A DNA stretch of 33,087 bases from Planctomycetales bacterium (GCA_027451885.1 DAIDHX010000293.1:1-33087); one strand, 5' to 3'. Numbered from the stretch's first letter, positions 12,791 through 31,214 are shown. A program made the numbers and translations. The notes: a model not told the origin generated them from the letters alone.

Positions 12791-15088
12791 ATGCGCAATT
12801 CGTTCCGCGTGATTTTCCTGCTGGGGACAGTTGTGGCCGTTGCTCTCGCGCCCCTGTTCGAACCCAGCGCCCGGGGTGCGGTCACGGCCGAGCAGGTGGA
12901 ACAGGCGATCCGCGATGGCGTGCGGTTCTTGAAGAGCAAGCAGCGCCCCGATGGGTCGTGGTTTGAAATCCAGGCCGATGCTCCCACCGGAGTGACCAGC
13001 CTGGTCACGCTGGCGTTGCTCACGGCGGGCGAGAGCCCGCGCTCGAAGGAGATCCAACGGGCGCTGGATTTCCTCCGTGCCAAGACGCCCGGCGAGCTGC
13101 GGAACACCTACGCGATCTCGCTCCAGACCATCGTGTTCGCCACCGCGGAGCCGGAGCGTGATCAGGCGCGAATCACGGCGAACGTGGAGTGGCTCGAAGG
13201 GGCTCAGATTCTCGCCAACGATCCGGTCCCCTGGCCTGGCTCCTGGAGCTATGACGACACCAAGCGCGGGCGGCCTGGCGACGGCTCGAACTCGCAATAC
13301 GCGCTCTTGGCCCTGAACGCCGCCGCCGAGGTGGGCGTTGCGGTCAAGCCGGAAGTCTGGGCCCGCGCCCGCGAGTACTGGGAACGGTCCCAGAAAGGCG
13401 ACGGGAGCTGGGCCTACCACCCCGATTCGGGCGCCTCGACCGCCTCGATGACCTGCGCGGGGATCGCAAGCCTGATCATCTCCGGACTCGCCCGATACCA
13501 GGACCAGGAATACCTCCGCGGCGATCTCATCGTCGATTGCGGCAAGGGGGGCGTGAACCGCCGAATCCGCCTTGGACTCGACTGGATGGCAAACCACTTC
13601 GCCGTCGGCCAGAACCCAGGAATCGGCCAGCAATGGCGGTTCTATTATCTGTACGGGCTCGAGCGCGCGGGACGCATGGCCGGCGTGCGGTTCCTCGGCC
13701 GCAACGACTGGTACAGGCTGGGCGCCGAGCGGCTGGTCCACGAGCAGAACCGGCTCGAAGGCGCCTGGCGCGGCGTGCTCACCGAGGAAGATCCCATTCT
13801 CGCCACCAGCTTCGCGCTCCTGTTCCTGGCCAAGGGACGCGCGCCTGTGCTCGTGCACAAGCTCTTCCACGGACCCGGCAGCGACTGGCAGAACGACCCA
13901 GATGACGTGCGCAACCTGGTCTCGATCGTCTCTCGCGACTGGAAAACCCTGCTCACCTGGCAGGTCGTCGATCCCGAGCACGCCACCGTATCCGAGCTCC
14001 TCCAGGCGCCGATCGCCTACATGAGCGGGCACAAGCCGCCTGAGCTTTCGCTCGAGGCCAAGCGCAGGCTGCGCGACTACCTGGAACAGGGAGGGTTTCT
14101 GGTCGCTGACGCTTGCTGCGGCAGCCCGGAATTCAACCGCGGCTTTCGCGACCTGGTGCACGACCTGTTCCCCGAGGAGCAATACAAGCTGCACCCGCTC
14201 TCCGAGGACCACCCCATCTGGCGCGCGCATTATCGCCTCTCGCCCGACCTGCACCCGCTCTGGGGCGTCGAGCACGGCTGCCGCACCCTGATCGTCTATT
14301 CCGAGCTCGACCTTTCCTGCTACTGGAACCAGGCCGAGCGCAGCCCGACCTCGCCCGCGGTGATCAAGTCGATGAAGATCGGCCAGAATATCGTGGACTA
14401 CGCCACTGGGCGGGAAACGCCGGCCGACAAGCTCACCATCCGCAAGGCGCGGGAGATGCAGACAAGCGCCCCCAGGCGCGGCGCCATGCGCATTGGCAAG
14501 CTCAAGTACGCCGGGGACTGGAACATCGCGCCGCTCGCCGTGCCCAATCTCATGGACGCGCTCCGCAAGCCGCCGTTCTCGTTCGACGTCACGGTCGAGC
14601 AAAAAGATCTCTTCCCGCGCGATCCAGATATGATTTATTACCCCCTTATCTATCTCCACGGCAGGGCCGCGATGGCGTTCGACCAGGACGATCTGGCCGC
14701 CCTGCGCAGGCACATTGACCCAGGCGCGGGCACGTTGTTCGCCGACGCCGCCTGCGGCAGCCCGGCGTTCGACGCCTCGTTCCGCCGCTTCATCTCCCAG
14801 CTCTTGCCCAAGCATGCACTTGTGCCGATCCCCAGGGATGATCCGCTCTTCACGCGTAAGGTGGGCGCGGATCTTTCCGAGGTCGAGTACACCAGGGCCG
14901 CGGGCGGCGGCAAGGGGCCGCCCAGGCTCGAAGGGATCAAGATCAACGATCACTGGGTCGTGATCTATTCCAGGTTCGACATCGGCTGCGCCCTCGAGCG
15001 CCAGACCGGCCTCGAATGCAGCGGCTACACCCACGAAAGCGCGGTTCGCATCGCGGCCAATGTGGTCATCTATTCAACACTGCCCTGA
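12791..15088 (+). CDS. secreted alpha-toroid protein with two DUF4159 domains
   Basis: The protein has 765 residues. A signal peptide (RVIFLLGTVVAVALAPLFEP) probably ends near ARGA at 27-30. Residues about 35-340 form a prenyltransferase/squalene-oxidase-like alpha-toroid with QW-type motifs (KQRPDGSWFE at 50-59 and QKGDGSWAYHP in a later repeat). The catalytic DxDD of cyclases is absent, so it is probably a binding scaffold. Two DUF4159 domains follow, at about 345-560 and 570-765. Each contains the block LxxxxxxGxLxADAxCGSPxF: first as GGFLVADACCGSPEF, then as GTLFADAACGSPAF. DUF4159 is GATase-like and is often encoded near MoxR/DUF58/VWA operons, as here. GAGG lies just upstream of the ATG. 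Function is unknown; a periplasmic role is inferred. Confidence 0.9.
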   Translation: MRNSFRVIFLLGTVVAVALAPLFEPSARGAVTAEQVEQAIRDGVRFLKSKQRPDGSWFEIQADAPTGVTSLVTLALLTAGESPRSKEIQRALDFLRAKTPGELRNTYAISLQTIVFATAEPERDQARITANVEWLEGAQILANDPVPWPGSWSYDDTKRGRPGDGSNSQYALLALNAAAEVGVAVKPEVWARAREYWERSQKGDGSWAYHPDSGASTASMTCAGIASLIISGLARYQDQEYLRGDLIVDCGKGGVNRRIRLGLDWMANHFAVGQNPGIGQQWRFYYLYGLERAGRMAGVRFLGRNDWYRLGAERLVHEQNRLEGAWRGVLTEEDPILATSFALLFLAKGRAPVLVHKLFHGPGSDWQNDPDDVRNLVSIVSRDWKTLLTWQVVDPEHATVSELLQAPIAYMSGHKPPELSLEAKRRLRDYLEQGGFLVADACCGSPEFNRGFRDLVHDLFPEEQYKLHPLSEDHPIWRAHYRLSPDLHPLWGVEHGCRTLIVYSELDLSCYWNQAERSPTSPAVIKSMKIGQNIVDYATGRETPADKLTIRKAREMQTSAPRRGAMRIGKLKYAGDWNIAPLAVPNLMDALRKPPFSFDVTVEQKDLFPRDPDMIYYPLIYLHGRAAMAFDQDDLAALRRHIDPGAGTLFADAACGSPAFDASFRRFISQLLPKHALVPIPRDDPLFTRKVGADLSEVEYTRAAGGGKGPPRLEGIKINDHWVVIYSRFDIGCALERQTGLECSGYTHESAVRIAANVVIYSTLP

Positions 15089-17685: not shown

Positions 17686-18897
17686 ATGGCACAGAATCGT
17701 GTGGGTCTCTGGCTGATTGGCGCCTTTGGAGGCGTCGGCTCAACCGTCGCGCTTGGGCTCTGCGCGATGGCTCGCGGCCTCGTGGGCGAAACCGGGCTCG
17801 TGTCCTCGTTACCACTCTTTGAAGGTCTGCCGCTGCCGGCCGCGGGCGATTTCGTGATCGGCGGGCACGAGATTCGCAAAACCACGTTCGAGGAAGCGGT
17901 CGAGGAATTCCGCGCTGCCTCCGGCGTGTTCGAGCGCGACTGGATCACCGCCTGCCGGGCGGAGCTCGACGAGGCCAGCCGCCGCGTCCGCCCCGGCACA
18001 ACCCTGGGCGCGGGGCCCACGATCCAGAAGCTCTCAACCTGGGCGCCTGATGACAGCGGCCTCTCCCCCCGCGCGGTGATCGATCGCCTGGGCGCGGATC
18101 TCGACGCCTTCGCAAGCTCCGAGAAGCTCGAGCACGTGATCGTGCTCAACGTGTCCTCGACCGAGCCGCCGTTCCCAGCCGGCCCCGCCCTGGAACATTA
18201 CAGCGCGCTCGAGCAGGCCCTCAAAACCAGCAAGGATCCGGTCGCCCCGGCGAGCACGCTCTATGCCGTGGCTGCGCTCGAGCGGGGGTACACGTACATC
18301 AATTTCACCCCCAGCCTGGGTGCTTCGTGCCCGGCCCTGGCCGAGCTTGCCGAGTCGACGAACGCACTCGTGGCCGGCAAGGACGGCAAGACGGGCGAGA
18401 CGCTGCTGAAAACGGTGCTCGCCCCCATGTTCGCCCAGCGCAACCTTCAGGTAATGAGCTGGGTGGGGCACAACATCTTCGGCAATCGCGACGGGATCGT
18501 GCTCGAGGACCCGGTGAACAAGTCGTCCAAGGTGGTGACGAAGGACCGCGTGGTCACGGGCATCCTGGGATACAAGCCGGCAACGGTTGTCTCGATTGAA
18601 TACGTACCCGACATGGGGGACTGGAAGACGGCGTGGGATCATATTCATTTCACCGGGTTCCTGAATTGCAAGATGACGCTGCAATTCACCTGGCAGGGGT
18701 GCGATAGTTTGCTTGCCGCGCCCCTGGCGATCGACCTGGCGCGGCTCGCCCATCTGGAACGGCTTCGCGGCGGCCGCGGCCTCATGCGCCATCTGGCCTC
18801 GTTCTTCAAGAGCCCCGAAGGCGTCGAGGAACACGACTACTTCAAGCAATTCGACCTGCTGGCCGACTACGCCCGCAAGGCACGCGAGACGCGCTAG
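17686..18897 (+). CDS. inositol-3-phosphate synthase (myo-inositol-1-phosphate synthase family)
   Basis: Family members convert glucose-6-phosphate to myo-inositol-3-phosphate using NAD+. The start at 17686 gives 403 residues, with GGAAG about 8 nt upstream. It has the NAD-binding glycine loop GAFGGVGST (12-20) right at the N-terminus. Other conserved blocks are INFTPSLG (205-212), KDGKTGET (232-239; family DDxKSGQT), HNIFGNRDG (262-270; family NxLGNNDG), KSSKVVTK (279-286), EYVPDMGDWKTAWD (305-318) and CDSLLAAPLAIDL (339-351). All core blocks are present, so it should be active, but it is divergent. Substrates may differ from glucose-6-phosphate. It heads a plus-strand block with TIM-barrel and UbiA-like genes, the next gene being 42 nt downstream. 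This context suggests its product feeds a specialised metabolite or lipid rather than general inositol supply. Confidence 0.92.
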   Translation: MAQNRVGLWLIGAFGGVGSTVALGLCAMARGLVGETGLVSSLPLFEGLPLPAAGDFVIGGHEIRKTTFEEAVEEFRAASGVFERDWITACRAELDEASRRVRPGTTLGAGPTIQKLSTWAPDDSGLSPRAVIDRLGADLDAFASSEKLEHVIVLNVSSTEPPFPAGPALEHYSALEQALKTSKDPVAPASTLYAVAALERGYTYINFTPSLGASCPALAELAESTNALVAGKDGKTGETLLKTVLAPMFAQRNLQVMSWVGHNIFGNRDGIVLEDPVNKSSKVVTKDRVVTGILGYKPATVVSIEYVPDMGDWKTAWDHIHFTGFLNCKMTLQFTWQGCDSLLAAPLAIDLARLAHLERLRGGRGLMRHLASFFKSPEGVEEHDYFKQFDLLADYARKARETR

Positions 18898-18939
18898 GCC
18901 GTCTCGCCCCCGCGCCTGACCTCCCAAAGCGAGCATCGC

Positions 18940-19788
18940 ATGCAACTTGCCTTCAGCACCAACGCCTACCTGACACACTCCTTCAGCCAGGCGGCCCTTC
19001 GCATCGCCGGGCTCGGTTACGCCGGGCTCGAGCTCATGGCCGACGTGCCGCACGCCTGGCCCGCCTGCCTGCTCGCCGAGCAAAAAGCCGCGATCCGGGC
19101 CGCCATGGATCGTAATCACCTCAAGTTTTCGAATGTAAACGCGTTTATGATGAACGCCGTTTCCGACCATCGGCAGCGGTACTGGCACCCCTCGTTCATT
19201 GAGCCGGACAGGCACTATCGCCAGGTGCGGATCGACCACACGTTCCGCGCGCTTGACCTGTGCGCGGAGCTGGGTGCGCCGCATATCACCACCGAGCCGG
19301 GCGGGCCGCTCGAGCCCGGCCAATCGCGGGCCGAGGCCGTCGATCTCTTCGTCGAGGTCCTCGAGCCGCTGGTGGATCACGCCGCGAAACGCGGGGTGAT
19401 GCTGCTCGTTGAGCCCGAGCCGGGGCTCCTGATCGAAACCACCGAGCAATATCGCGAGATCGCCGAGCGGATCGCATCCCCCGCGCTTGGCCTGAACTTC
19501 GACATCGGCCACGCCTACTGCATGGGGGAGGATCTGCCGCGGCAGATCGCCCGCATGAAGGAGCATACGCGGCATTATCACCTGGAGGACATCGCCGCGA
19601 CGCGCGTCCATCACCACCTGGTTCCCGGCATGGGCGCGATCGATTTTGCCGAGGTGATCGCCGCCATCCGCGGCACAGGCTACGACGGCTGGCTGACGGT
19701 GGAGCTCTATCCGTTCACCGAGGATCCGGACGCCGCGGCCAGGCAAGCGCTTGATGTGCTGCGCCCGCTGGTCGAGGCCAGGCGGTGA
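18940..19788 (+). CDS. sugar phosphate isomerase/epimerase-like TIM-barrel protein (copy A)
   Basis: A 282-residue xylose-isomerase-like (AP-endonuclease-2 family) TIM barrel. Probable divalent-metal ligands are Glu158 (LLVEPEPG), Asp188/His191 (FDIGHAYC), His214 (HYHLED), and Glu255 (LTVELYPF). A His-rich loop HHHLVPGMGAIDF (224-236) closes the site. Members isomerise or epimerise sugars, ketoses and inositol derivatives such as inosose. The neighbouring inositol-phosphate synthase makes a cyclitol or polyol substrate attractive, but this is inference. The stop overlaps the GTG of the UbiA-like gene by 4 nt, indicating translational coupling. It shares many blocks with the TIM-barrel protein at 20735, so the two are paralogues. 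Similarity to EboE-type proteins of ebo clusters is possible but not proven. Confidence 0.9.
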   Translation: MQLAFSTNAYLTHSFSQAALRIAGLGYAGLELMADVPHAWPACLLAEQKAAIRAAMDRNHLKFSNVNAFMMNAVSDHRQRYWHPSFIEPDRHYRQVRIDHTFRALDLCAELGAPHITTEPGGPLEPGQSRAEAVDLFVEVLEPLVDHAAKRGVMLLVEPEPGLLIETTEQYREIAERIASPALGLNFDIGHAYCMGEDLPRQIARMKEHTRHYHLEDIAATRVHHHLVPGMGAIDFAEVIAAIRGTGYDGWLTVELYPFTEDPDAAARQALDVLRPLVEARR

Positions 19789-20711
19789 GAGCGGATTCGA
19801 GCGCGAGTTCGCGGGTGCGGGGCTGGATCGAGCTTGTACGGCTGCCGAACGTCGTCACCGCGGCGGCGGACAGCCTCGCCGGCTGGCTGCTGGCCGGGCA
19901 TGGGCTCTCGGCTGTCGACGGCTGGCTCCCCCTGGGCGCTGCCTCGATGCTGCTCTACGCTTCCGGCGTGGGCTTGAACGACGTCTTCGACCACAAGATC
20001 GACGCCATCGAACGCCCTGGCCGGCCCATCCCCTCGGGGCGCGTGCCGCTCAGGACCGCGGCCTGGATCTTGAGCGCGGGGCTCGCGGCAGGCGTGGCCG
20101 CCGCCGCCCTCGCGGCAATCCAATCCGCGGCCGTCGCCATTCTGCTCGCCTGCGCGATCCTGGCTTACAACGGCGGACTCAAAAAGACCTGGTTAGGCCC
20201 CCTCTCGATGGGTGCTTGCCGTGGGTTGAACTTTCTCATGGGCGCTGCGCCCGCGGACGGGATCGGCGGCCCCGCCTGCTGGGGTTATGCCGCGGCCTTC
20301 GCGCTCTTTGTGGCGGGCATCACCGCGGCCAGCCGCGCGGAGGTCTCCGGCGGCCGCCTCGCCTGGCTTCCGTTCGGCGTCGCACTCGAAAACCTCAGCC
20401 TGCTGCTGTTCGCCGGCCTGGCGCTCGCACCCAGGGCCTTCTTGAATCCAACCGCCAACCGCGGGCGCGTGCCGCTCGAGGGCGTCGTGCTGCTTGGCTT
20501 GCTCGCGCTCGTGCTCAATCGGGCCGGGTTTCGCGCACTCAAACACGCCACGCCAGGGCTCGTGCAAGCCTTCGTCAAAACCGGAATCCTCAGCCTCGTC
20601 TGGATCCACGTGAGCGTGGTCGCGGCCATCCGCGGACCGATCGCAGCGATCCCGCTCACTGCGCTCTGGATCGTGGCGTTTCTCCTGGCACGCAGGCTCT
20701 ATGCCACCTGA
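19785..20711 (+). CDS. UbiA-family prenyltransferase, EboC-like
   Basis: The GTG start at 19785 overlaps the preceding stop codon (GTGA). The 308-residue product has about nine membrane helices. The first Asp-rich motif of UbiA enzymes is intact: NDVFDHKID (65-73), then ERPGRPIPSG (76-85). This binds the Mg-diphosphate of a prenyl donor. The second Asp-rich motif is not recognisable; its position is held by YNGGLKKTWLGPLSMGACRG. That resembles the UbiA-like EboC proteins of ebo clusters more than ubiquinone or menaquinone enzymes. It lies between two TIM-barrel genes and downstream of an inositol-phosphate synthase, so it may transfer a prenyl chain to, or move across the membrane, a polyol-derived molecule. 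The family is firm; the acceptor is speculation. Confidence 0.92.
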   Translation: MRADSSASSRVRGWIELVRLPNVVTAAADSLAGWLLAGHGLSAVDGWLPLGAASMLLYASGVGLNDVFDHKIDAIERPGRPIPSGRVPLRTAAWILSAGLAAGVAAAALAAIQSAAVAILLACAILAYNGGLKKTWLGPLSMGACRGLNFLMGAAPADGIGGPACWGYAAAFALFVAGITAASRAEVSGGRLAWLPFGVALENLSLLLFAGLALAPRAFLNPTANRGRVPLEGVVLLGLLALVLNRAGFRALKHATPGLVQAFVKTGILSLVWIHVSVVAAIRGPIAAIPLTALWIVAFLLARRLYAT

Positions 20712-20734
20712 CCACGCACGGAGAGGCTCATTCC

Positions 20735-21589
20735 ATGCGGCTCGGCTATAACACGAACGGTTTACCCCATCACAGGCTGCTCGACGCCATCGCGCTGCTG
20801 GCCGATCTGGGCTACCAGAGCGTGGCCATCACGCTCGACGTCGGCGCCCTTGACCCCTATCAGGACCCCAGCGACCTCAACCGCCAGATTCTGGCCGTGC
20901 GGCGGGCACTCGAGCACGCCCAGCTTCGTTCCGTCATCGAAACAGGCGCCCGCTTTCTGCTCAACCCGCGGCAAAAACACGACCCCACCCTGCTCGATCC
21001 CGACCCCGCAAGGCGCACGATCCGCCAGGATTTTCTGATCCGGTCGATCGCGATCGCGCGGCAACTTGGCTCGGATTGCGTCTCCCTCTGGTCCGGCAAA
21101 GCCCCCGATGACCCGCCCGCCGAAGTCGCCCTGGACCGCCTGGTGCAGGCCCTCGAGCCAGTACTCCACTCCTCGGAAGCACAGGGCGTGCCCATCGCCT
21201 TCGAACCCGAACCAGGCATGTTCATCGACACGTTGGCCTCCTTTCGCCAACTCGACGAACGCATCGCCCAGCCCTGCTTGCAACTCACCGTCGACCTGGG
21301 GCACGTGCACTGCCTGCGCGAGGGCCCCTGGGAAATCGTCCTACCCCCCTGGCGCGGACGCATCCTCAATATCCACATCGAGGACATGGTTGAAAACGTC
21401 CACGAGCACCTCATGTTCGGTGACGGAACCATGGACTTTCCACGCATACTTGCAGTCTTGCGTGATATCGAATATCGTGGTAGCCTTCATGTCGAGCTGA
21501 GCCGCCATGGCCACATGGCGGCCGAAGCCTCCGCGCGTGCGATGGAAGCGCTCCGCCAGGCCCTCGCCAGCCCGGGCGTGCGATCCTGA
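20735..21589 (+). CDS. sugar phosphate isomerase/epimerase-like TIM-barrel protein (copy B)
   Basis: The ATG at 20735 has GGAGAGG 8 nt upstream. The frame is open further upstream only as noise opposite the UbiA gene. The 284-residue TIM barrel has the same metal-site layout as copy A: Glu157 (AFEPEPG), Asp187/His190 (VDLGHVHC), His214 (NIHIED), His223/225 with Asp234 (GDGTMDF) and Glu254 (HVEL). The N-terminus LGYNTNGLPHH differs from copy A, pointing to a different substrate. It ends the four-gene block; a new promoter and hairpin lie downstream. The likely role is isomerisation or epimerisation of an intermediate of this pathway. EboE-like trafficking proteins are an alternative assignment. 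Confidence 0.9.
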   Translation: MRLGYNTNGLPHHRLLDAIALLADLGYQSVAITLDVGALDPYQDPSDLNRQILAVRRALEHAQLRSVIETGARFLLNPRQKHDPTLLDPDPARRTIRQDFLIRSIAIARQLGSDCVSLWSGKAPDDPPAEVALDRLVQALEPVLHSSEAQGVPIAFEPEPGMFIDTLASFRQLDERIAQPCLQLTVDLGHVHCLREGPWEIVLPPWRGRILNIHIEDMVENVHEHLMFGDGTMDFPRILAVLRDIEYRGSLHVELSRHGHMAAEASARAMEALRQALASPGVRS

Positions 21590-23418: not shown

Positions 23419-25326
23419 ATGTGGCGTAGAGCTCATTCCAGCTTGTGGGAAATCCCCCCGCTTCTGGGCTTTGCCACCATTTGCGGTCTGGCTGGCGGAC
23501 TCCTGGATTCCGTCTGGCGTTTGACCTTGCAGTCGGTGGCGCCGCGTGGGCATTTGATCACGCTGCACCGCGACTTCGCGTGGCTTGATCCGCTCGTTTG
23601 CGCGGTGTTGTTCCCGATCTGTGCGCTTGTTGTGTACCTGCCTTTTGCCGCCTGGCCAAAGCTTGCCAGCAAGATCTCGGCTCGGGTTTGCATTGGGCTT
23701 GGGCTCGCCCCCGTGTTCATGCAGTCGATTCCTGGGATCTATGAAGAGGCCTGGCTGGTGTTCTGCCTGGGTCTGGCGAGCCTGGTTGCGCCTCGTATTG
23801 AGTCAGCGCTTGGGACGCGGCGACGGCGGACGGCCACGGCCGCGGGATTGCTTGTGGCGGTGGGCTGCGTGGCTGGAGTCCGTTTCGCACGTGATTGGAA
23901 GGGCCGTCGAGACGAGTCGGCCCGCGCGTTACCAGCCGCGTCCGCGCTGAACGTGCTCTTGATTGTGCTCGACACGGTGCGGGCGGACGGCGTGAGCGAA
24001 CCTGCGAGCCCGCGGATGGTGACGCCTGCGCTTGCCTCCCTGGCGTCGCGTGGGGTGCGGTTTCGCAATGCGCGCGCCACCGCACCCTGGACGCTCGCCT
24101 CGCATGCCAGTCTTCTCACCGGCCGTTTACCGAGCGAGGTTGGAACAGACTGGATGACGCCGCTGGCCAGGCCCTCGCCAGCGCTTGCCGAGGAGCTTGG
24201 CGCGCAGGGCTATCGCACCGCGGGGTTCGTGGCCAACGCGGGGTATTGCAACAGGCATACCGGGCTCGCATCGGGATTCACCCATTACGAAGATTACCCG
24301 CTCCATCTGGGCGGAATCGTGCGTTCCTCCGAGCTCGTGCAACGTTTCCTGATCTCGGCATCCGAGTTATCGGAATCGATTCACGACTGGGCGGCGGCCT
24401 GGGTCTTCGACCCCGAGCGCAAATCCGCCGCGACCATCAACGCCCAGTTCCTGGGCTGGCTCGACCGCCGAGACTCCTCGAACCGACCGTTTTTCGCCTT
24501 CCTCAACTATCTTGACGCCCATGCGCCTTACCAGCTTCCGCGGGGCGCTTCGCCGCGCATGCCGATTCTGGAAGATCCCACACGGCTGGAGCGGCTGATC
24601 ACGCTCTGGCCGACTCTGGATCGCTCCACGCTCGACCCACGCATGATCTCCCTGGCCCGGGCATCCTACGACAACTGCATCGCCGAGCTCGATCATCAGC
24701 TTGGCCGGCTCTTCGACGCGCTCAAACGCCGAGGATTGCTCGAGCGCACGATCGTGATCGTGACCTCGGATCATGGCGAAGGATTTGGGGAGCACGGCCT
24801 CTTCGACCATGGCGACAGCCTTTATGACAGCGAGATCCGCGTTCCGCTGATCATTGTTCCGCCGGGGGGGCTCGCGCGCCCAATCGTGATCGACGAGCCG
24901 GTAAGCCTGCGCGACATTCCCGCGACGATTCATGAGCTGGTCAGCCCGGGGAGTGATTCGCGTTTACCGGGCCGGTCGCTGGCACGCTTCTGGAAATCGG
25001 ATGCATCGGACGGCGGGGACGAGGAACCCGCGATCTCCGAGCTGGCATCACCCAACCCGACCGACCCCAACTGCGGGCGCTCGCCCGCGACGTCCGGCCC
25101 CCTTGTGTCGCTGGCGCAAGGACGCTTCGTCTATATTCGGAACGAACGCACGCAGTCGGAGCAGTTTTTCGACGTGGTGGATGACCCGCGGCAGCTTTCC
25201 AACCGCGCGGCTGATCCGAGATTCCAGGATGTGCTCTCTCGTTTTCGCGCCTGGAGCGTGGTCCAGCTTCCTCGCGCGCGCTTGACAAGGGTCGTCTCGG
25301 CCCAGCGTCCGCCAGGCTTGGAGTAG
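23419..25326 (+). CDS. membrane-anchored sulfatase-like (alkaline phosphatase superfamily) protein
   Basis: The 635-residue protein has four or five N-terminal membrane helices within residues 12-155, then an alkaline-phosphatase-fold domain from about 177. Metal-site blocks are LLIVLDTVRADG (Asp185, Asp190), LDAHAPY (His369) and TSDHGEGFGEHG (Asp451, His452). The nucleophile block reads APWTLASHASLLTG: the Cys/Ser of formylglycine sulfatases (C-x-P-S-R) is Thr225 here and the Arg is His229. That argues against a classical sulfatase and for a Thr-based phospho- or phosphonate-transfer enzyme such as a phosphoglycerol or phosphoethanolamine transferase. The substrate is not deducible. No ribosome-binding site is obvious before the ATG at 23419. 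It is preceded by a terminator, so it has its own promoter. Confidence 0.88.
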   Translation: MWRRAHSSLWEIPPLLGFATICGLAGGLLDSVWRLTLQSVAPRGHLITLHRDFAWLDPLVCAVLFPICALVVYLPFAAWPKLASKISARVCIGLGLAPVFMQSIPGIYEEAWLVFCLGLASLVAPRIESALGTRRRRTATAAGLLVAVGCVAGVRFARDWKGRRDESARALPAASALNVLLIVLDTVRADGVSEPASPRMVTPALASLASRGVRFRNARATAPWTLASHASLLTGRLPSEVGTDWMTPLARPSPALAEELGAQGYRTAGFVANAGYCNRHTGLASGFTHYEDYPLHLGGIVRSSELVQRFLISASELSESIHDWAAAWVFDPERKSAATINAQFLGWLDRRDSSNRPFFAFLNYLDAHAPYQLPRGASPRMPILEDPTRLERLITLWPTLDRSTLDPRMISLARASYDNCIAELDHQLGRLFDALKRRGLLERTIVIVTSDHGEGFGEHGLFDHGDSLYDSEIRVPLIIVPPGGLARPIVIDEPVSLRDIPATIHELVSPGSDSRLPGRSLARFWKSDASDGGDEEPAISELASPNPTDPNCGRSPATSGPLVSLAQGRFVYIRNERTQSEQFFDVVDDPRQLSNRAADPRFQDVLSRFRAWSVVQLPRARLTRVVSAQRPPGLE

Positions 25327-25510: not shown

Positions 25511-28321
25511 ATGAGTCGTCGGCTAGCGAGAATCGGCTGGGCGCGGTTGTGCGCGTTGACCCTGGGGGTGTGCGCTGTGTTCGGGTGCACGCGTTCGTAC
25601 TACCACGACTACGCCGATAACGATGTGTACCGCATTTTGAAGTCGCGCCTGATCGACTGGCGTTGGCGGTTGCCGGAGCGTCCCGTGGAGGCCGATCCGC
25701 GGTCGCGGATGGCGGATCGTACCGACCCCAACCACACGCCGATCATCCCCGATGAAGCCGCAGCGCGGAGGTACCAGGTTTCGTCGCGTTTTCCCTTTGA
25801 ATACATCGGCTGGCGCAAGCGAGGCACAGCGCCGATCGAGGACCTGAACTGGCAAGGGGCTGTCTCGTTGGAACCGGACGGCAAGCTGCTGCTCGGCCGC
25901 GACTCGATCATGCGGCTGGGGATGCTGAACAGCCGCGACTACCAGTTTCAGTACGAGAATCTCTATCTTTCGGCCCTGAATCTGACGCTTGCGCGGTTCC
26001 AGTTCATGGTCCAGGGTTATAGCAGCTCAGCGCTGACGTATTTGCCGCTGACGGGGGCGGGTTACATTCCTCCGGTGACCTCGGGCGAGGTGACGGCCGG
26101 GGTGACGGGCGCATCCACAAGCGCGCTGACCTCGACGGCGACGGGTGCGGCATCGAGCGGGAGCACGGCGGGCTCCACGGGCGGATCAAGCTCCACGAGC
26201 ACGAGCGGCTCAAGCGCGACCGCGAGCGCGACTTCAGGGTCAAGCGCCGGCAGCACGGCGGGCGCGCAGACCGCCGCGCGAACAGCCGGGCGCACGTTCG
26301 CCTCGAACGCCACGAGCACCACGCCGAACCTGAACAATCAGCTCCAGGCGCTCACCACCAACGGCTTTTCGCTCAACCTGATGACGGGCGCCCAGTTGCT
26401 CGTGAACATGGCGAATCAGCTTGTGTTTCAGTATTCGAACCACGGCATGCAGATCGCCTCGCCCAATCTCACGATCAATTTCATCCAGCCGCTGTTGCGG
26501 GGCGCGTGGGCGCGCATCGTGACCCAGTCGCTCTCGCTCCAGGAGCGCGAGGTGCTCTACACCATGCGCTCATTTGCCGAGTTTCGCCGCCAGTTTTACG
26601 TGGGGCTGATCACCGGCTCGGGCGGGACCTCGACGTCCGGGTATCTCGGGCTCGTCTCGCAGCTTCAGGCCATCCGCAACGCACAGGCCAATTTGAACTC
26701 CTACAGGCAGAATCTCGACATGTACGAGGCCGAGATGCAAGCCGGCCTGCGGACTGTGCTTGAACGCGATCAGCTTGCGCTCAATTACCAGACGACCCAG
26801 GCCGCGCTCTTGCAGCAGCAGGCCGCGCTCCAGACCGCGCTTGACGCCTTCAAGATCTCGCTGGGCTTGCCCCCCGAGATGGACGTGCGCATCGACGACT
26901 CGGTGCTCGACCCCTTCCTGCTCGCGGATGAACGGCTCAATCTCTTGCGGTTTGAGAACGACGACCTGCTCATCCGCCTGGTGCAAAGCAAGGAGCCGCC
27001 GCGGCAGGAGCTGCGCGACATCGCGACCGAGCTCAGCACGGCCTACGCCCTGCTGGAAGCCGTCCATGACGAGCTCCGTGAAGAGATCCACCGCTGGCGG
27101 GCGCGGCTCGACCGCGAACTCAAGGACGGGCTCAAGGAGCCCGATCTCGAGCACAAAAAGGAAATCTTCGCGCGCGAAGATCGGCTCTCGCAGGAGATCC
27201 TGGCGACGATCCAGGACACCGACGCCAGCATCGACAGCGACCAGGACGCGCTTGAAACCTTCCTGGCCAGGCTCGAGACCACGCCGATCGCCGAGGCGGT
27301 TCCCCAGCTTCGCGACCTGATGACCAAGCGGTTCCGCGACCGGCTCTCCAATGTCTACGTGGCGCAGACGCAGACCCGCGTATTCCTGATCGAGCTCAAG
27401 CCGGTGGATCTGACGGTCGATCAGGCGATCCAGGTCGCGCTTGGGAACCGGCTCGACCTTCAAAACGCGCTGGCCCAGGTGACCGACGCCTGGCGCCAGG
27501 TTGAAGTCGACGCCAACTCCCTGCGCGGGTTCTTGAACTTCGTTTATACCGGTAGTTTCAACTCCGCGCCGAACCACGCCACGCTCTTCCGCTTCGACGC
27601 CTCGAGCACGGTGCAATCGTTCGGTCTCCAGTTCGATGCGCCGATCAATCGCCGGGTCGAGCGCAACCAGTATCGAGCCGATCAGATCACGTACCAGCGG
27701 GCGCGCCGTGCTTACATGCTCGCCCGCGATACCGTCGTGCAGGAAATTCGTCTCGATACCCGCCAGCTCGCGCTTGCCAGGCGCACCTTCGAAATCAATC
27801 GCGAGCAGATCATCTCCGCCAGCCGCCAGCTCGAGCAGGCGGAATTCGCGCTTCGCACTTCCACCGACACCACTGCGCCCGTGACGCTCAACCTGCTGAA
27901 CGCGCTTTCGGGCGTGCTTTCCGCGCGCAACTCGCTGATCCAGAGCTGGGTGAATTACGAGACGGCCCGTTTTTCGCTCTACCGCGACTTCGACCTGATG
28001 GACATCGACTCGAACGGGGTTTGGACCAATGAAGACGACCCAACCGCCATCCAGATCGCCCTCCGAAACGCCAACCGAGCTCCCGCCTACAGCCTCGGAG
28101 TTCCCGCCCAGTTCCCCGACCTCTCCCCCGGCCGAAGCTCGAACAGCATCTTCTACATCGACACCGAGCCCGGCGGCCGAGCCGGCGGAGTCCCCGATCG
28201 ACTCGACGAGACCGAGGGACCACTCGGCCCTCGCGGCGACGTCGAGCGCGTCCCACCCCCGCCCGTCCCCGCTCCTGCCGCCGCCCCCAGTCCCTTTGCG
28301 CCAGGTCGTCCGGGGCCGTAG
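25511..28321 (+). CDS. large TolC-like outer membrane efflux lipoprotein
   Basis: The 936-residue product starts with a lipoprotein-type signal (LCALTLGVCAVFGC, Cys26). The TolC fold is visible as beta-strand segments and long helices with the usual internal repeat: residues about 310-460 (SLSLQEREVLYTMRSF, EAEMQAGLRTVLERDQLALN) and 630-830 (QAIQVALGNRLDLQNALAQV, RTFEINREQIISASRQLEQA). Ordinary TolC homologues have 450-500 residues. Here extra length comes from an N-terminal domain, a Ser/Thr/Gly/Ala-rich insert (about 191-272), a coiled-coil insert between the halves (about 500-620) and a Pro-rich tail. It should form the outer-membrane channel of the export system encoded with the adaptor and permease downstream. 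AAGGG lies 9 nt upstream of the ATG. Confidence 0.9.
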   Translation: MSRRLARIGWARLCALTLGVCAVFGCTRSYYHDYADNDVYRILKSRLIDWRWRLPERPVEADPRSRMADRTDPNHTPIIPDEAAARRYQVSSRFPFEYIGWRKRGTAPIEDLNWQGAVSLEPDGKLLLGRDSIMRLGMLNSRDYQFQYENLYLSALNLTLARFQFMVQGYSSSALTYLPLTGAGYIPPVTSGEVTAGVTGASTSALTSTATGAASSGSTAGSTGGSSSTSTSGSSATASATSGSSAGSTAGAQTAARTAGRTFASNATSTTPNLNNQLQALTTNGFSLNLMTGAQLLVNMANQLVFQYSNHGMQIASPNLTINFIQPLLRGAWARIVTQSLSLQEREVLYTMRSFAEFRRQFYVGLITGSGGTSTSGYLGLVSQLQAIRNAQANLNSYRQNLDMYEAEMQAGLRTVLERDQLALNYQTTQAALLQQQAALQTALDAFKISLGLPPEMDVRIDDSVLDPFLLADERLNLLRFENDDLLIRLVQSKEPPRQELRDIATELSTAYALLEAVHDELREEIHRWRARLDRELKDGLKEPDLEHKKEIFAREDRLSQEILATIQDTDASIDSDQDALETFLARLETTPIAEAVPQLRDLMTKRFRDRLSNVYVAQTQTRVFLIELKPVDLTVDQAIQVALGNRLDLQNALAQVTDAWRQVEVDANSLRGFLNFVYTGSFNSAPNHATLFRFDASSTVQSFGLQFDAPINRRVERNQYRADQITYQRARRAYMLARDTVVQEIRLDTRQLALARRTFEINREQIISASRQLEQAEFALRTSTDTTAPVTLNLLNALSGVLSARNSLIQSWVNYETARFSLYRDFDLMDIDSNGVWTNEDDPTAIQIALRNANRAPAYSLGVPAQFPDLSPGRSSNSIFYIDTEPGGRAGGVPDRLDETEGPLGPRGDVERVPPPPVPAPAAAPSPFAPGRPGP

Positions 28322-29873
28322 GCTCAGGCGGTTCGCCAGCCGGGTGCTCGGGACCCTCACCGTCGCCGCCACGGTCTGCGCGGGAGGTTACTACGCCGTC
28401 TCTTCCTCCTGGAACGCCGGCAAACGGGCCGATGCCCCGCTTACCTCCCAGATCCGCCGCGCCACCTTGCGCATCATCGTGACCGAGCATGGCAATCTTG
28501 AAAGCTGCGTCACCGTTGACGGCATCTGCGAAGTCAACGCTAACCAGGTCAAGATCATCAGCCTGGTCCCCGAGGGCACAAAGGTCAAAAAGGGGGACAT
28601 CGTTTGCAAGTTCGACTCATCCGACATCGACAAGAACATCTCCCAGCAAGACGTGAAGGCCAAGCAGGCGTTCGGGAAGATCGAGACAAGCGCGCAGGAG
28701 CTGGAGATCCAACGCAACAAGGGAGAGAGCGACATCATCGCCGCCAGGGTGGAGCTCACGCTCGCCGAGCTCGACCTCGAGAAGTACCAAAAAGGGGATT
28801 ACCCGGCCGAGACCACCAAGCAAAAGGGAGATATCGGCCTCAAGAAGAAGGACTTTGAAGAGGCCAAGAACAAGCTCGACCAGTTCCAGACGCTCATGAA
28901 GAAGGGCTTCAAGACGCCCGAGCAGGTGCGGATTCAAGAAGCCGACGTGGCCCGGATGAAGTTGCAATACGAATCGGCGGAGCTCGAGCTCAAGGTCAAG
29001 CAAACCTATGAGTACAAGCGCAAGACGACGGAGTTCAGCGCCAAGTCGGAGCAGGCGAGGAAAAAGGTGGAGCAGGCGCAGGCGACATTGAAGGCGCAGG
29101 TTTCGAAGGCGCGGAGCGAATACGAGGCGGCCAAGGCGACCTTCGACATCGAGCAGCAACAGCTCAAGGAGTATCTCAAGCAGAAGGACAAGACGATCAT
29201 CCGCGCGGGGCAGGATGGCATCGTCGCCTATGCCAATCAGGCGTGGTATGACTCCAGCCGGCAGATTCGCGAGGGGGCGACGGTGTATTCGCTCCAGAAG
29301 GTTTTCAGCCTTCCCGACATGACGCGTATGCAGGTTAAAGTGAACATTCATGAATCCTTGATCAAGAAGATCAAGCCGGGCCAGACGGCGGAGATCCGCA
29401 TCGAGTCGTTCCCGAGCATTGTCTTCCGCGGGACCGTGAAGACGGTCTCGCAGCTTGCGGATTCCACCCGGCCGTGGCTGACGGGCGGGGTGAAGCAGTA
29501 TCCCACGGTGGTGGAGCTGGACACGCTCGAGGGCCAGGACCTGAAGCCGGGGATGACGGCCGAGACCCGGATCATCGTCGGCGTGCTGAACGACGTGCTC
29601 GTCGCCCCCATCACGGCCATCGCCGAGCACAAGGGGGCGTACTTCGCGTTTGTGGTGAAGCCCGATCGCATCGAGCGCAGGCCGGTCAAGATCGGCGAAA
29701 ACAACGAGAGCCACGTGCAGATTCTGGAAGGGCTCGCGGTCGGCGAGGTTGTCGCGCTCGATGCGCGCACGCGGGCGGGCGTGGAATTCAAGCTCGACGA
29801 TGAGAAGGAAAGCGCGGGGACGGAGCCAAAAACCAGCGCTTCAAACGGGGCAGCCGCACCCGCTCCCCAGTGA
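28296..29873 (+). CDS. periplasmic adaptor (HlyD/MacA-type membrane fusion protein)
   Basis: Adaptors of this type join an inner-membrane transporter to a TolC channel. From a TTG at 28296 the product has 525 residues: a basic N-terminus, one membrane helix (VLGTLTVAATVCAGGYYAV), a lipoyl half (VPEGTKVKKGDIVCKFDSSD), a very long coiled-coil hairpin (about 112-305), the second lipoyl half (KTIIRAGQDGIVAYA), a beta-barrel (IKPGQTAEIRIESFPSIVF) and a membrane-proximal domain. The start is uncertain. An ATG at 28029 would add 89 Pro/Ser/Thr-rich residues, but it would overlap the TolC-like gene by 293 nt, and third-position GC bias there favours the TolC frame. A GTG at 28344 is another option. 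The permease gene follows after 42 nt. Confidence 0.85.
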   Translation: MRQVVRGRRLRRFASRVLGTLTVAATVCAGGYYAVSSSWNAGKRADAPLTSQIRRATLRIIVTEHGNLESCVTVDGICEVNANQVKIISLVPEGTKVKKGDIVCKFDSSDIDKNISQQDVKAKQAFGKIETSAQELEIQRNKGESDIIAARVELTLAELDLEKYQKGDYPAETTKQKGDIGLKKKDFEEAKNKLDQFQTLMKKGFKTPEQVRIQEADVARMKLQYESAELELKVKQTYEYKRKTTEFSAKSEQARKKVEQAQATLKAQVSKARSEYEAAKATFDIEQQQLKEYLKQKDKTIIRAGQDGIVAYANQAWYDSSRQIREGATVYSLQKVFSLPDMTRMQVKVNIHESLIKKIKPGQTAEIRIESFPSIVFRGTVKTVSQLADSTRPWLTGGVKQYPTVVELDTLEGQDLKPGMTAETRIIVGVLNDVLVAPITAIAEHKGAYFAFVVKPDRIERRPVKIGENNESHVQILEGLAVGEVVALDARTRAGVEFKLDDEKESAGTEPKTSASNGAAAPAPQ

Positions 29874-29915
29874 GCGCAGCCACGTGACTCGCACCCAGGC
29901 CAGCCGCCGGGAGCC

Positions 29916-31214
29916 ATGAGCACCATGCATTTTCATCGCATCTACACCGCCGTTGTGCTCGCGCTTCGCAATCTCACACTGCACAAGCTGCGGGTTTTCC
30001 TCACCGTGCTGGGGCTGATCTTCGGCGTTTCGTCCGTCATCGCCATGCTGGCGATCGCCGAGGGAGCAAGCCTGGAAGCCCAGCGCCAGATCGCGGCCCT
30101 GGGCGCAACCAACGTCATCGTGCAGAGCAAAAAACCGCCGAGCGACGTCAATCCCTCAAAAAACCAGGATTCCGAGAGCTACATCCTCCCCTTCGGAGTG
30201 ACCTACGCCGACTTCGAGCGGATCATCGCAACCATCCCCACCGTGGTCCAGGCCACCCCGCTGCGCGAGTTCCGCAAAAACGTGCGCCATGTCGACAAGG
30301 AAATCGAGGCCCGCATCGTGGGCGTGAATCCCGACTATCTCAAACTGATCGGCCAGACCGTGGCCCAGGGCCGATTCTTCACCGACGCCGATCTGATTCG
30401 CACCGAGAACGTGTGCGTGATCGGGTCGGAGACCGCCGAACGACTTTTTCCCTATGGCGAACCGGTGGGCAAGACCATTCGGATCGACGAGCAGCATTAC
30501 TTCATCGTGGTCGGCGTGACGCCCTATAAAACGCCCTCGGGAGGCGCAGGGAGCTCGCTTTCCGCACAGGACTTCAACAAGGACGTCTACATTCCGCTCA
30601 CCACCGATCGCTCGCGGTTCGGCGAGGTGATTGAAAACCAGAAGCAGGGCAGTTTTTCCGCCGAGCGGATCGAGCTGTCGCAAATCACCGTGACGGTGGC
30701 CGCGATGGAGGAGGTGAAGCGCACGGCCGCCGCGCTCGAGAGCATGCTCAAGCAGTTTCATCCCAAGGGGGATTACGCGATCACGGTGCCGCTGGAGCTG
30801 CTGGAGAAGGCCGAGGCCACCAAGCGTATCTTCAACATTGTGCTGGGTTCGATTGCCGGGATCTCGCTTTTGGTGGGGGGGATTGGGATCATGAACATCA
30901 TGCTGGCGACGGTCTCCGAGCGCACGCGTGAGATCGGGATTCGCCGCGCCATCGGCGCCCGGCGCAGGGATATCGTGAACCAGTTCTTGATCGAGACGAC
31001 GGTGATGTCGTCCGCGGGAGGACTGGTTGGCGTTGTGGTGGGGCTTGCCGTGCCTCCGGTGGTCTCCCAGTTTTCGGGGATTCCCGCCGTGATCCGACCC
31101 TGGTCGCCGATCGTGGCGTTTCTCATCGCCGTGGGCATCGGCATTGTCTTCGGCGTCTATCCCGCGCGGCGCGCGGCGATGCTCGATCCGGTCGAGGCGC
31201 TCAGGACGGAATAA
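29916..31214 (+). CDS. ABC transporter permease, MacB/FtsX type
   Basis: The 432-residue protein has the MacB-like layout: helix 1 (VFLTVLGLIFGVSSVIAMLA), a large periplasmic domain (about 50-295), then three helices. The MacB/FtsX block SERTREIGIRRAIGARRRDI follows helix 2, and YPARRAAMLDPVEALR ends the protein. Such permeases work with an ABC ATPase and couple to TolC through a MacA-like adaptor. Both partner types lie directly upstream, but no ATPase gene or fused ATPase domain exists in this window, so it must be supplied from elsewhere. Cargo of this class ranges over peptides, lipoproteins and small amphiphiles; the sequence does not decide. An ATG at 29925 is an alternative start. Confidence 0.93.
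   Translation: MSTMHFHRIYTAVVLALRNLTLHKLRVFLTVLGLIFGVSSVIAMLAIAEGASLEAQRQIAALGATNVIVQSKKPPSDVNPSKNQDSESYILPFGVTYADFERIIATIPTVVQATPLREFRKNVRHVDKEIEARIVGVNPDYLKLIGQTVAQGRFFTDADLIRTENVCVIGSETAERLFPYGEPVGKTIRIDEQHYFIVVGVTPYKTPSGGAGSSLSAQDFNKDVYIPLTTDRSRFGEVIENQKQGSFSAERIELSQITVTVAAMEEVKRTAAALESMLKQFHPKGDYAITVPLELLEKAEATKRIFNIVLGSIAGISLLVGGIGIMNIMLATVSERTREIGIRRAIGARRRDIVNQFLIETTVMSSAGGLVGVVVGLAVPPVVSQFSGIPAVIRPWSPIVAFLIAVGIGIVFGVYPARRAAMLDPVEALRTE

Follow-up and report, generated by a model that had tools for sequence, protein, structure and literature searches.

An inositol-phosphate synthase, a UbiA prenyltransferase, and two TIM barrels as the probable core of a variant ebo pathway in a Planctomycetales bacterium

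What might a bacterium build with an inositol-phosphate synthase, a membrane prenyltransferase, and two xylose-isomerase-like TIM barrels encoded side by side? We examined this question in a 33,087-nucleotide stretch of DNA from a Planctomycetales bacterium (GCA_027451885.1 DAIDHX010000293.1:1-33087; hereafter the window, meaning the whole stretch), for which an earlier note had proposed a compact ebo-related or independent pathway that makes or moves a prenyl-linked cyclitol or polyol. The ebo/EDB cluster eboABCDEF is known from cyanobacteria, Bacteroidota, Pseudomonas, and eustigmatophyte plastids, and its phenotypes include scytonemin precursor export in Nostoc and, in Pseudomonas, a factor that gives protection from grazing nematodes (both PMC6282210). 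A prenyl cyclitol has been proposed for the classic pathway on the basis of EboD (PMC5133447), and no established natural product or substrate was found in the literature that we searched. Our analysis indicates that the four-gene block in the window is probably the core of a variant ebo pathway that takes inositol phosphate as its feed instead of the EboD product. The block comprises the following genes:

17686-18897, plus strand: INO1, 403 amino acids, 1L-myo-inositol-1-phosphate synthase (PF07994 and PF01658)
18940-19788, plus strand: TIM1, 282 amino acids, xylose-isomerase-like TIM barrel (PF01261, 2.8e-45)
19785-20711, plus strand: UbiA, 308 amino acids, EboC-like UbiA-family membrane prenyltransferase; its GTG start overlaps the TIM1 stop
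20735-21589, plus strand: TIM2, 284 amino acids, xylose-isomerase-like TIM barrel of a PF01261 subfamily distinct from that of TIM1

What is new here is the exchange, within the known ebo pathway, of INO1 plus TIM2 for EboD and of TIM1 for EboE, which offers a first tangible hint at the product of the pathway; no link between INO1 and ebo appeared in the literature searched. The ebo genes are widespread and poorly understood and have striking phenotypes, and INO1 has a known product. The almost exclusive replacement of one by the other between INO1 and EboD points to a substrate and makes the question testable.

The presence of each gene in 59 Planctomycetia genomes reveals two replacement patterns around a nearly universal core (EboB-like in 58 genomes, EboC in 58, and EboF-like in 57). 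INO1 occurs in 39 genomes, TIM2 in 38 and never outside those with INO1, and EboD in 20. INO1 without EboD characterizes 38 genomes and EboD without INO1 another 19, with one genome holding both and one neither. Resolved further, the patterns are INO1 with TIM2 (37), EboD only (19), and single cases of INO1 without TIM2, of all three genes, and of none. In the sole genome with INO1 but no TIM2, a 4,044-base contig stops near UbiA, and the genome with neither module (G031) is incomplete and is missing EboC too. Since all but one of the EboD genomes lack INO1, the presence of INO1 in the class tracks the ebo pathway. In a second exchange, TIM1 (39 genomes) and EboE (17) never occur together; the three genomes with neither are 77-89% complete. 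These assignments are well separated from the limits applied, as the weakest match was 6e-112 for TIM1 (limit 1e-50) and 1e-136 for EboD (limit 1e-70).

The two exchanges are separate, because all four combinations of the D module (EboD or INO1 plus TIM2) and the EboE/TIM1 module occur. Both D states are found inside four families, and both EboE/TIM1 states inside two, even in one genus (g23). On a tree of EboB plus EboC, about five well-supported independent pairs differ in INO1; TIM2 changed in the same way in 5/5 and EboD in the opposite way in 4/5. TIM1 and EboE differed in opposite ways in 5/8 pairs, and the other three showed no difference. No EboD gene was recognized beside EboC in the ORF (open reading frame) lists of the EboD-type planctomycetes, where EboD is located elsewhere. 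An earlier study of three planctomycetes reported that eboD is missing from two and that clustering occurs in none (PMC5133447). The exchange of EboD for INO1 may explain that absence, and the clusters that we observe at the family level revise the report on clustering.

INO1 scores above the cut-off in both Pfam MIPS models (PF07994, 4.7e-42; PF01658, 1.2e-34), and its closest solved relative is the Archaeoglobus fulgidus enzyme (1u1i, 1.3e-85). The glycine-rich NAD loop WLIGAFGGVGS is retained, as are K286 and K375, the lysines changed to alanine in A. fulgidus entries 3qvw and 3qvx. Judged by sequence, INO1 is a genuine inositol-1-phosphate synthase, and a single copy was found in the source genome. 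It did not reach the curated cut-off of the mycothiol INO1 model TIGR03450 (34.9 bits against 638).

For UbiA, the best NCBIfam match is the EboC model NF035940 (3.1e-54), at 184 bits and thus below the cut-off of 250. This cut-off does not mark the boundary of the pathway, because a UbiA protein inside an annotated Azospirillum ebo cluster reaches just 89 bits. EboC is followed in the ranking by the actinobacterial SCO3242 family, with quinone and heme enzymes far below; assignment to the latter was rejected, as the UbiA, MqnP, and CyoE models gave 1e-4 to 1e-6. The first motif (N65, D66, D69, and D73 of NDxxDxxxD) is invariant in 12 relatives. In place of a second Asp-rich motif, the protein has T..SR.E, of which the T and E are common to other aligned ebo-cluster proteins. 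By sequence, the nearest solved structure is the archaeal DGGGP synthase of the UbiA superfamily (6m31), which shares the first Asp-rich motif, but this match amounts to only 50 bits and equivalog cut-offs are not reached.

Both TIM barrels contain the metal-site residues E/D/H/E, and the third ligand of TIM2, His in the window protein, is Gln in many actinobacteria. The predicted models have predicted local distance difference test (pLDDT) values of 92.7 for TIM1, with D-tagatose 3-epimerase as the nearest fold, and 95.5 for TIM2, nearest to UlaE; fold comparison places both nearest to sugar (ketose 3-) epimerases and names no substrate. Neither barrel proved to be EboE. With the EboE model (NF035939, cut-off 250 bits), TIM1 reaches 26 bits, and TIM2 is absent from the match list at E 0.01. 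TIM1 is 42% identical to a haloarchaeal protein, TIMa, and the two fall together on one side of a tree branch with support of 86. TIM2 is 43-45% identical to the TIM barrel of Streptomyces ebo clusters and groups with the barrel of actinobacterial ebo clusters on one side of a branch with support of 100. It is fused to EboA as one protein in 12 actinobacterial loci, which fits a fusion already noted (PMC5133447).

The ORF coordinates confirm four consecutive plus-strand genes within 3.9 kb, and the catalytic motifs described above are intact, both as proposed. INO1 and TIM1 are separated by 42 bases, TIM1 and UbiA overlap by 4 bases, and UbiA and TIM2 are separated by 23 bases; the predicted arrangement is as in an operon. 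A pattern scan of the block gave no decisive signal. We measured linkage in the 24 same-family genomes having both INO1 and UbiA. INO1 and TIM1 lie <3 kb apart in 22/24, as do TIM1 and UbiA at <1 kb, and UbiA and TIM2 are <1.5 kb apart in 18/24; all distance limits for the four genes hold in 17/24. Several of the misses are genes on split contigs. Because these distances are kept across the family, the block is not a chance neighborhood. The proposal that it is ebo-related is supported, as is the placement of UbiA with EboC. Neither outcome that the earlier note named as refuting came about, as the gene order is kept in the family and UbiA falls outside quinone and heme biosynthesis.

Further ebo genes lie elsewhere in the source genome. 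An EboB-like TatD hydrolase (G000:C279:4835-5635) scores 490 bits with a profile of the cluster TatD proteins, which finds a single match per genome in 58/59. An EboF-like type I phosphodiesterase/nucleotide pyrophosphatase (G000:C221:24019-25395) scores 481 bits (PF01663, 7.5e-50) and is 50% identical to a Streptomyces cluster protein. EboD (NF004852) gave no match in this genome and exceeded the cut-off in 20 relatives, and there is no true EboE (NF035939), which 17 relatives have. EboA (NF035938) was not found in the source genome by a search that recovered three positive-control plasmids; over this genome and 36 relatives, it was present in only four class relatives. The reported absence of eboA, eboB, eboD, and eboF is therefore true of the window and, for eboA and eboD, of the genome, but EboB-like and EboF-like genes are present on other contigs. 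In 18 family members the EboB-like gene is no more than 12 kb from EboC. A sulfatase gene downstream of the block (23419-25326) was rejected as EboF, as it has no match in the loci of relatives and the EboF-like gene sits on C221.

Because these EboB-like and EboF-like partners reside on other contigs, INO1 plus TIM2 replaces EboD, and TIM1 replaces EboE, the suggestion of a compact independent pathway does not hold. Compared with classic ebo, the genome shares an EboC-type UbiA, an EboB-type TatD, an EboF-type phosphodiesterase, and predicted cyclitol and prenyl chemistry; it differs in lacking EboA, EboD, and EboE, in having INO1 plus TIM2 and TIM1 instead, and in the distribution of the core over three contigs.

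Several observations concern the surroundings of these genes. CcsA/ResB-type cytochrome c biogenesis genes (L226:6011-12318) neighbor the EboF-like gene of the source genome at a distance of about 30 bases and run in the same direction. Besides an EboF-like gene elsewhere in the genome, some same-family members have a second, divergent NPP-type gene immediately downstream of UbiA or TIM2 (L042:9118-10329, L043, L041, and L038), which shares 35-37% identity with Streptomyces EboF. An MFS gene adjoins the EboB-like gene of the source genome, and in three class relatives (G040, G057, and G049; L094, L126, and L127) EboE has as its neighbor a gene for a related MFS transporter, with 39% identity, that may be an exporter.

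Loci beyond the class show the same exchanges. A DNA-pattern search of a genome collection returned 80 EboC loci; this set is rich in actinobacteria, favors some EboC forms, and includes some planctomycete genomes already among the 59. INO1 plus TIM2 is present in 54 of these loci and EboD in 2, and none combines EboD with INO1 or TIM2. EboE occurs in 50, TIM1 in 11, and both in none. Annotated EboD-type plasmid clusters of Azospirillum, Deinococcus, Mycetohabitans, Aureibacter, Salipiger, and Ketogulonicigenium list no INO1, and annotated INO1-type plasmid clusters of Streptomyces and haloarchaea list no EboD. A plasmid search with UbiA as the query found two halophiles only; INO1 and EboE queries were more productive.

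On Streptomyces plasmids the order is INO1, UbiA, a TIM barrel related to TIM2, EboA, TatD, EboE, and NPP. Actinobacterial ebo clusters, whose prenyltransferase is of the SCO3242 family, resemble the block in having INO1, UbiA, and TIM2 with EboB and EboF partners, but they add EboE and an EboA that is in some cases fused to TIM2, and TIM1 was not found there. Haloarchaeal plasmids encode TatD, TIMa, UbiA, and TIMb together with INO1 and NPP. They share with the block INO1, UbiA, TIM1/TIMa, the presence of two barrels, and the lack of an annotated EboA; they differ in that TatD and NPP are linked and the second barrel, TIMb, falls outside the TIM2 group. Members of this third TIM-barrel group adjoin INO1 and UbiA at loci that lack TIM2, in haloarchaea (L072-L074, L164, and L166) and in a Myxococcales bin (L168:7952-10549), and may replace TIM2 there. 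In Desulfosarcina (L156:2464-13042), TatD, INO1, TIM1, UbiA, NPP, and TIM2 lie on one strand in about 10.6 kb, with TIM1, UbiA, NPP, and TIM2 close together. Desulfotignum (L155) has TIM1, UbiA, NPP, and TIM2, with INO1 on the opposite strand. Both genera are possible experimental systems.

A pathway consistent with these patterns would start with INO1, which is expected to convert glucose 6-phosphate to 1L-myo-inositol 1-phosphate, the reaction established for its family. TIM2 most likely epimerizes or isomerizes inositol 1-phosphate or its keto form, given its UlaE/tagatose-epimerase fold and its pairing with INO1. The two enzymes would thereby supply the cyclitol otherwise supplied by the sugar-phosphate-cyclase-like EboD, and TIM1 would perform the step done elsewhere by EboE. 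From the chemistry of its family, we infer that EboC adds a prenyl chain to the polyol in the membrane. The EboB-like TatD and the EboF-like phosphodiesterase may trim or dephosphorylate the molecule, either before or after prenylation. A prenyl-linked cyclitol is a plausible product; it would probably reside in the membrane and could act as a carrier, a role derived from Nostoc (PMC6282210), or as a protective lipid. We give roughly even weight to a broader generalization, that ebo is a modular factory for prenylated cyclitol lipids in which EboD or INO1 plus TIM2, and EboE or TIM1, have been swapped independently and repeatedly, with inositol 1-phosphate or the TIM2 product as the first known chemical entry point.

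A number of points weigh against a variant ebo pathway fed by inositol phosphate. Conservation of the neighborhood, which the earlier note had raised as a comparison to make, holds within the family (probably Isosphaeraceae) but not in other families, where the block genes are mostly scattered. Haloarchaea pair INO1 with a different second barrel, TIMb. A single genome, G020, holds EboD and INO1/TIM2 together (L117 and L070); this EboD is possibly contamination, because the guanine-plus-cytosine content of its locus is 65%, compared with 60-61% at other pathway loci. The tree used to judge independence is based on two genes that themselves belong to the pathway, the paired sign tests give 0.06-0.125 and could not reach 0.05 because there are just about five independent switches, and the Fisher values for the module patterns (1e-12 to 1e-15) ignore kinship. 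The one EboC relative that has been assayed transfers farnesyl groups to quinolines (PMC9235831). Ubi-297 of Maribacter is, like the block protein, an EboC homologue, lies in an ebo cluster, and is a membrane farnesyltransferase (PMC9235831), but it was assayed on aromatic acceptors and not cyclitols, and its cluster is described as EboD-type. Finally, replacement is no proof of the same product, and the head groups made by the two modules may differ.

This last point forms the strongest alternative, which we consider a realistic prospect although short of an even chance. Here EboD would yield a C7 cyclitol and INO1 plus TIM2 a C6 inositol derivative, and a shared core of EboB, EboC, and EboF would prenylate either one to give two product classes. 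EboD is related to cyclases acting on sedoheptulose 7-phosphate (PMC5133447), whereas INO1 uses glucose 6-phosphate, and the switch of the D module is complete nearly every time. However, no EboC or EboB alignment column separates the module types in every one of the four families where both are present, a weak test that slightly favors the same product, and EboE/TIM1 switches independently of the D module.

It is also possible, if somewhat doubtful, that what the pathway transports to the periplasm is an unrelated metabolite, with the cyclitol part serving only as a carrier or cofactor. This explanation is compatible with the inositol-fed variant of ebo, but the conserved gene set contains no transporter, and no counterpart of the MFS gene adjoining the EboB-like gene of the source genome turned up in the other loci examined.

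Very unlikely is a role for INO1 in ordinary inositol metabolism (inositol lipids or osmolytes), merely adjoining ebo-like genes. By its sequence and conserved lysines the protein is a normal MIPS, yet it travels with TIM2, is present in no EboD genome other than G020, and belongs to ebo clusters of Actinomycetota, Gemmatimonadota, Desulfobacterota, and Halobacteria. Least credible of all is an inositol-breakdown operon with the barrels as IolE/IolO-type enzymes, since the weak matches of TIM1 and TIM2 to IolE, IolO, and epimerase models fall far under the curated cut-offs (for TIM1, at most 75 of 300 bits with IolO, and lower for TIM2), INO1 is biosynthetic, the block has no further catabolic gene, and a membrane prenyltransferase does not fit.

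Two other regions of the window merit description. At 12791-15088 on the plus strand, an ORF with weak squalene-cyclase-like toroid matches lies antisense to a long minus-strand ORF, in a neighborhood common to relatives (L031, L032, L034, and L035). At 25511-31214, an OEP-domain protein (936 amino acids), an RND-type adaptor, and a MacB-type permease form an apparent tripartite export set.
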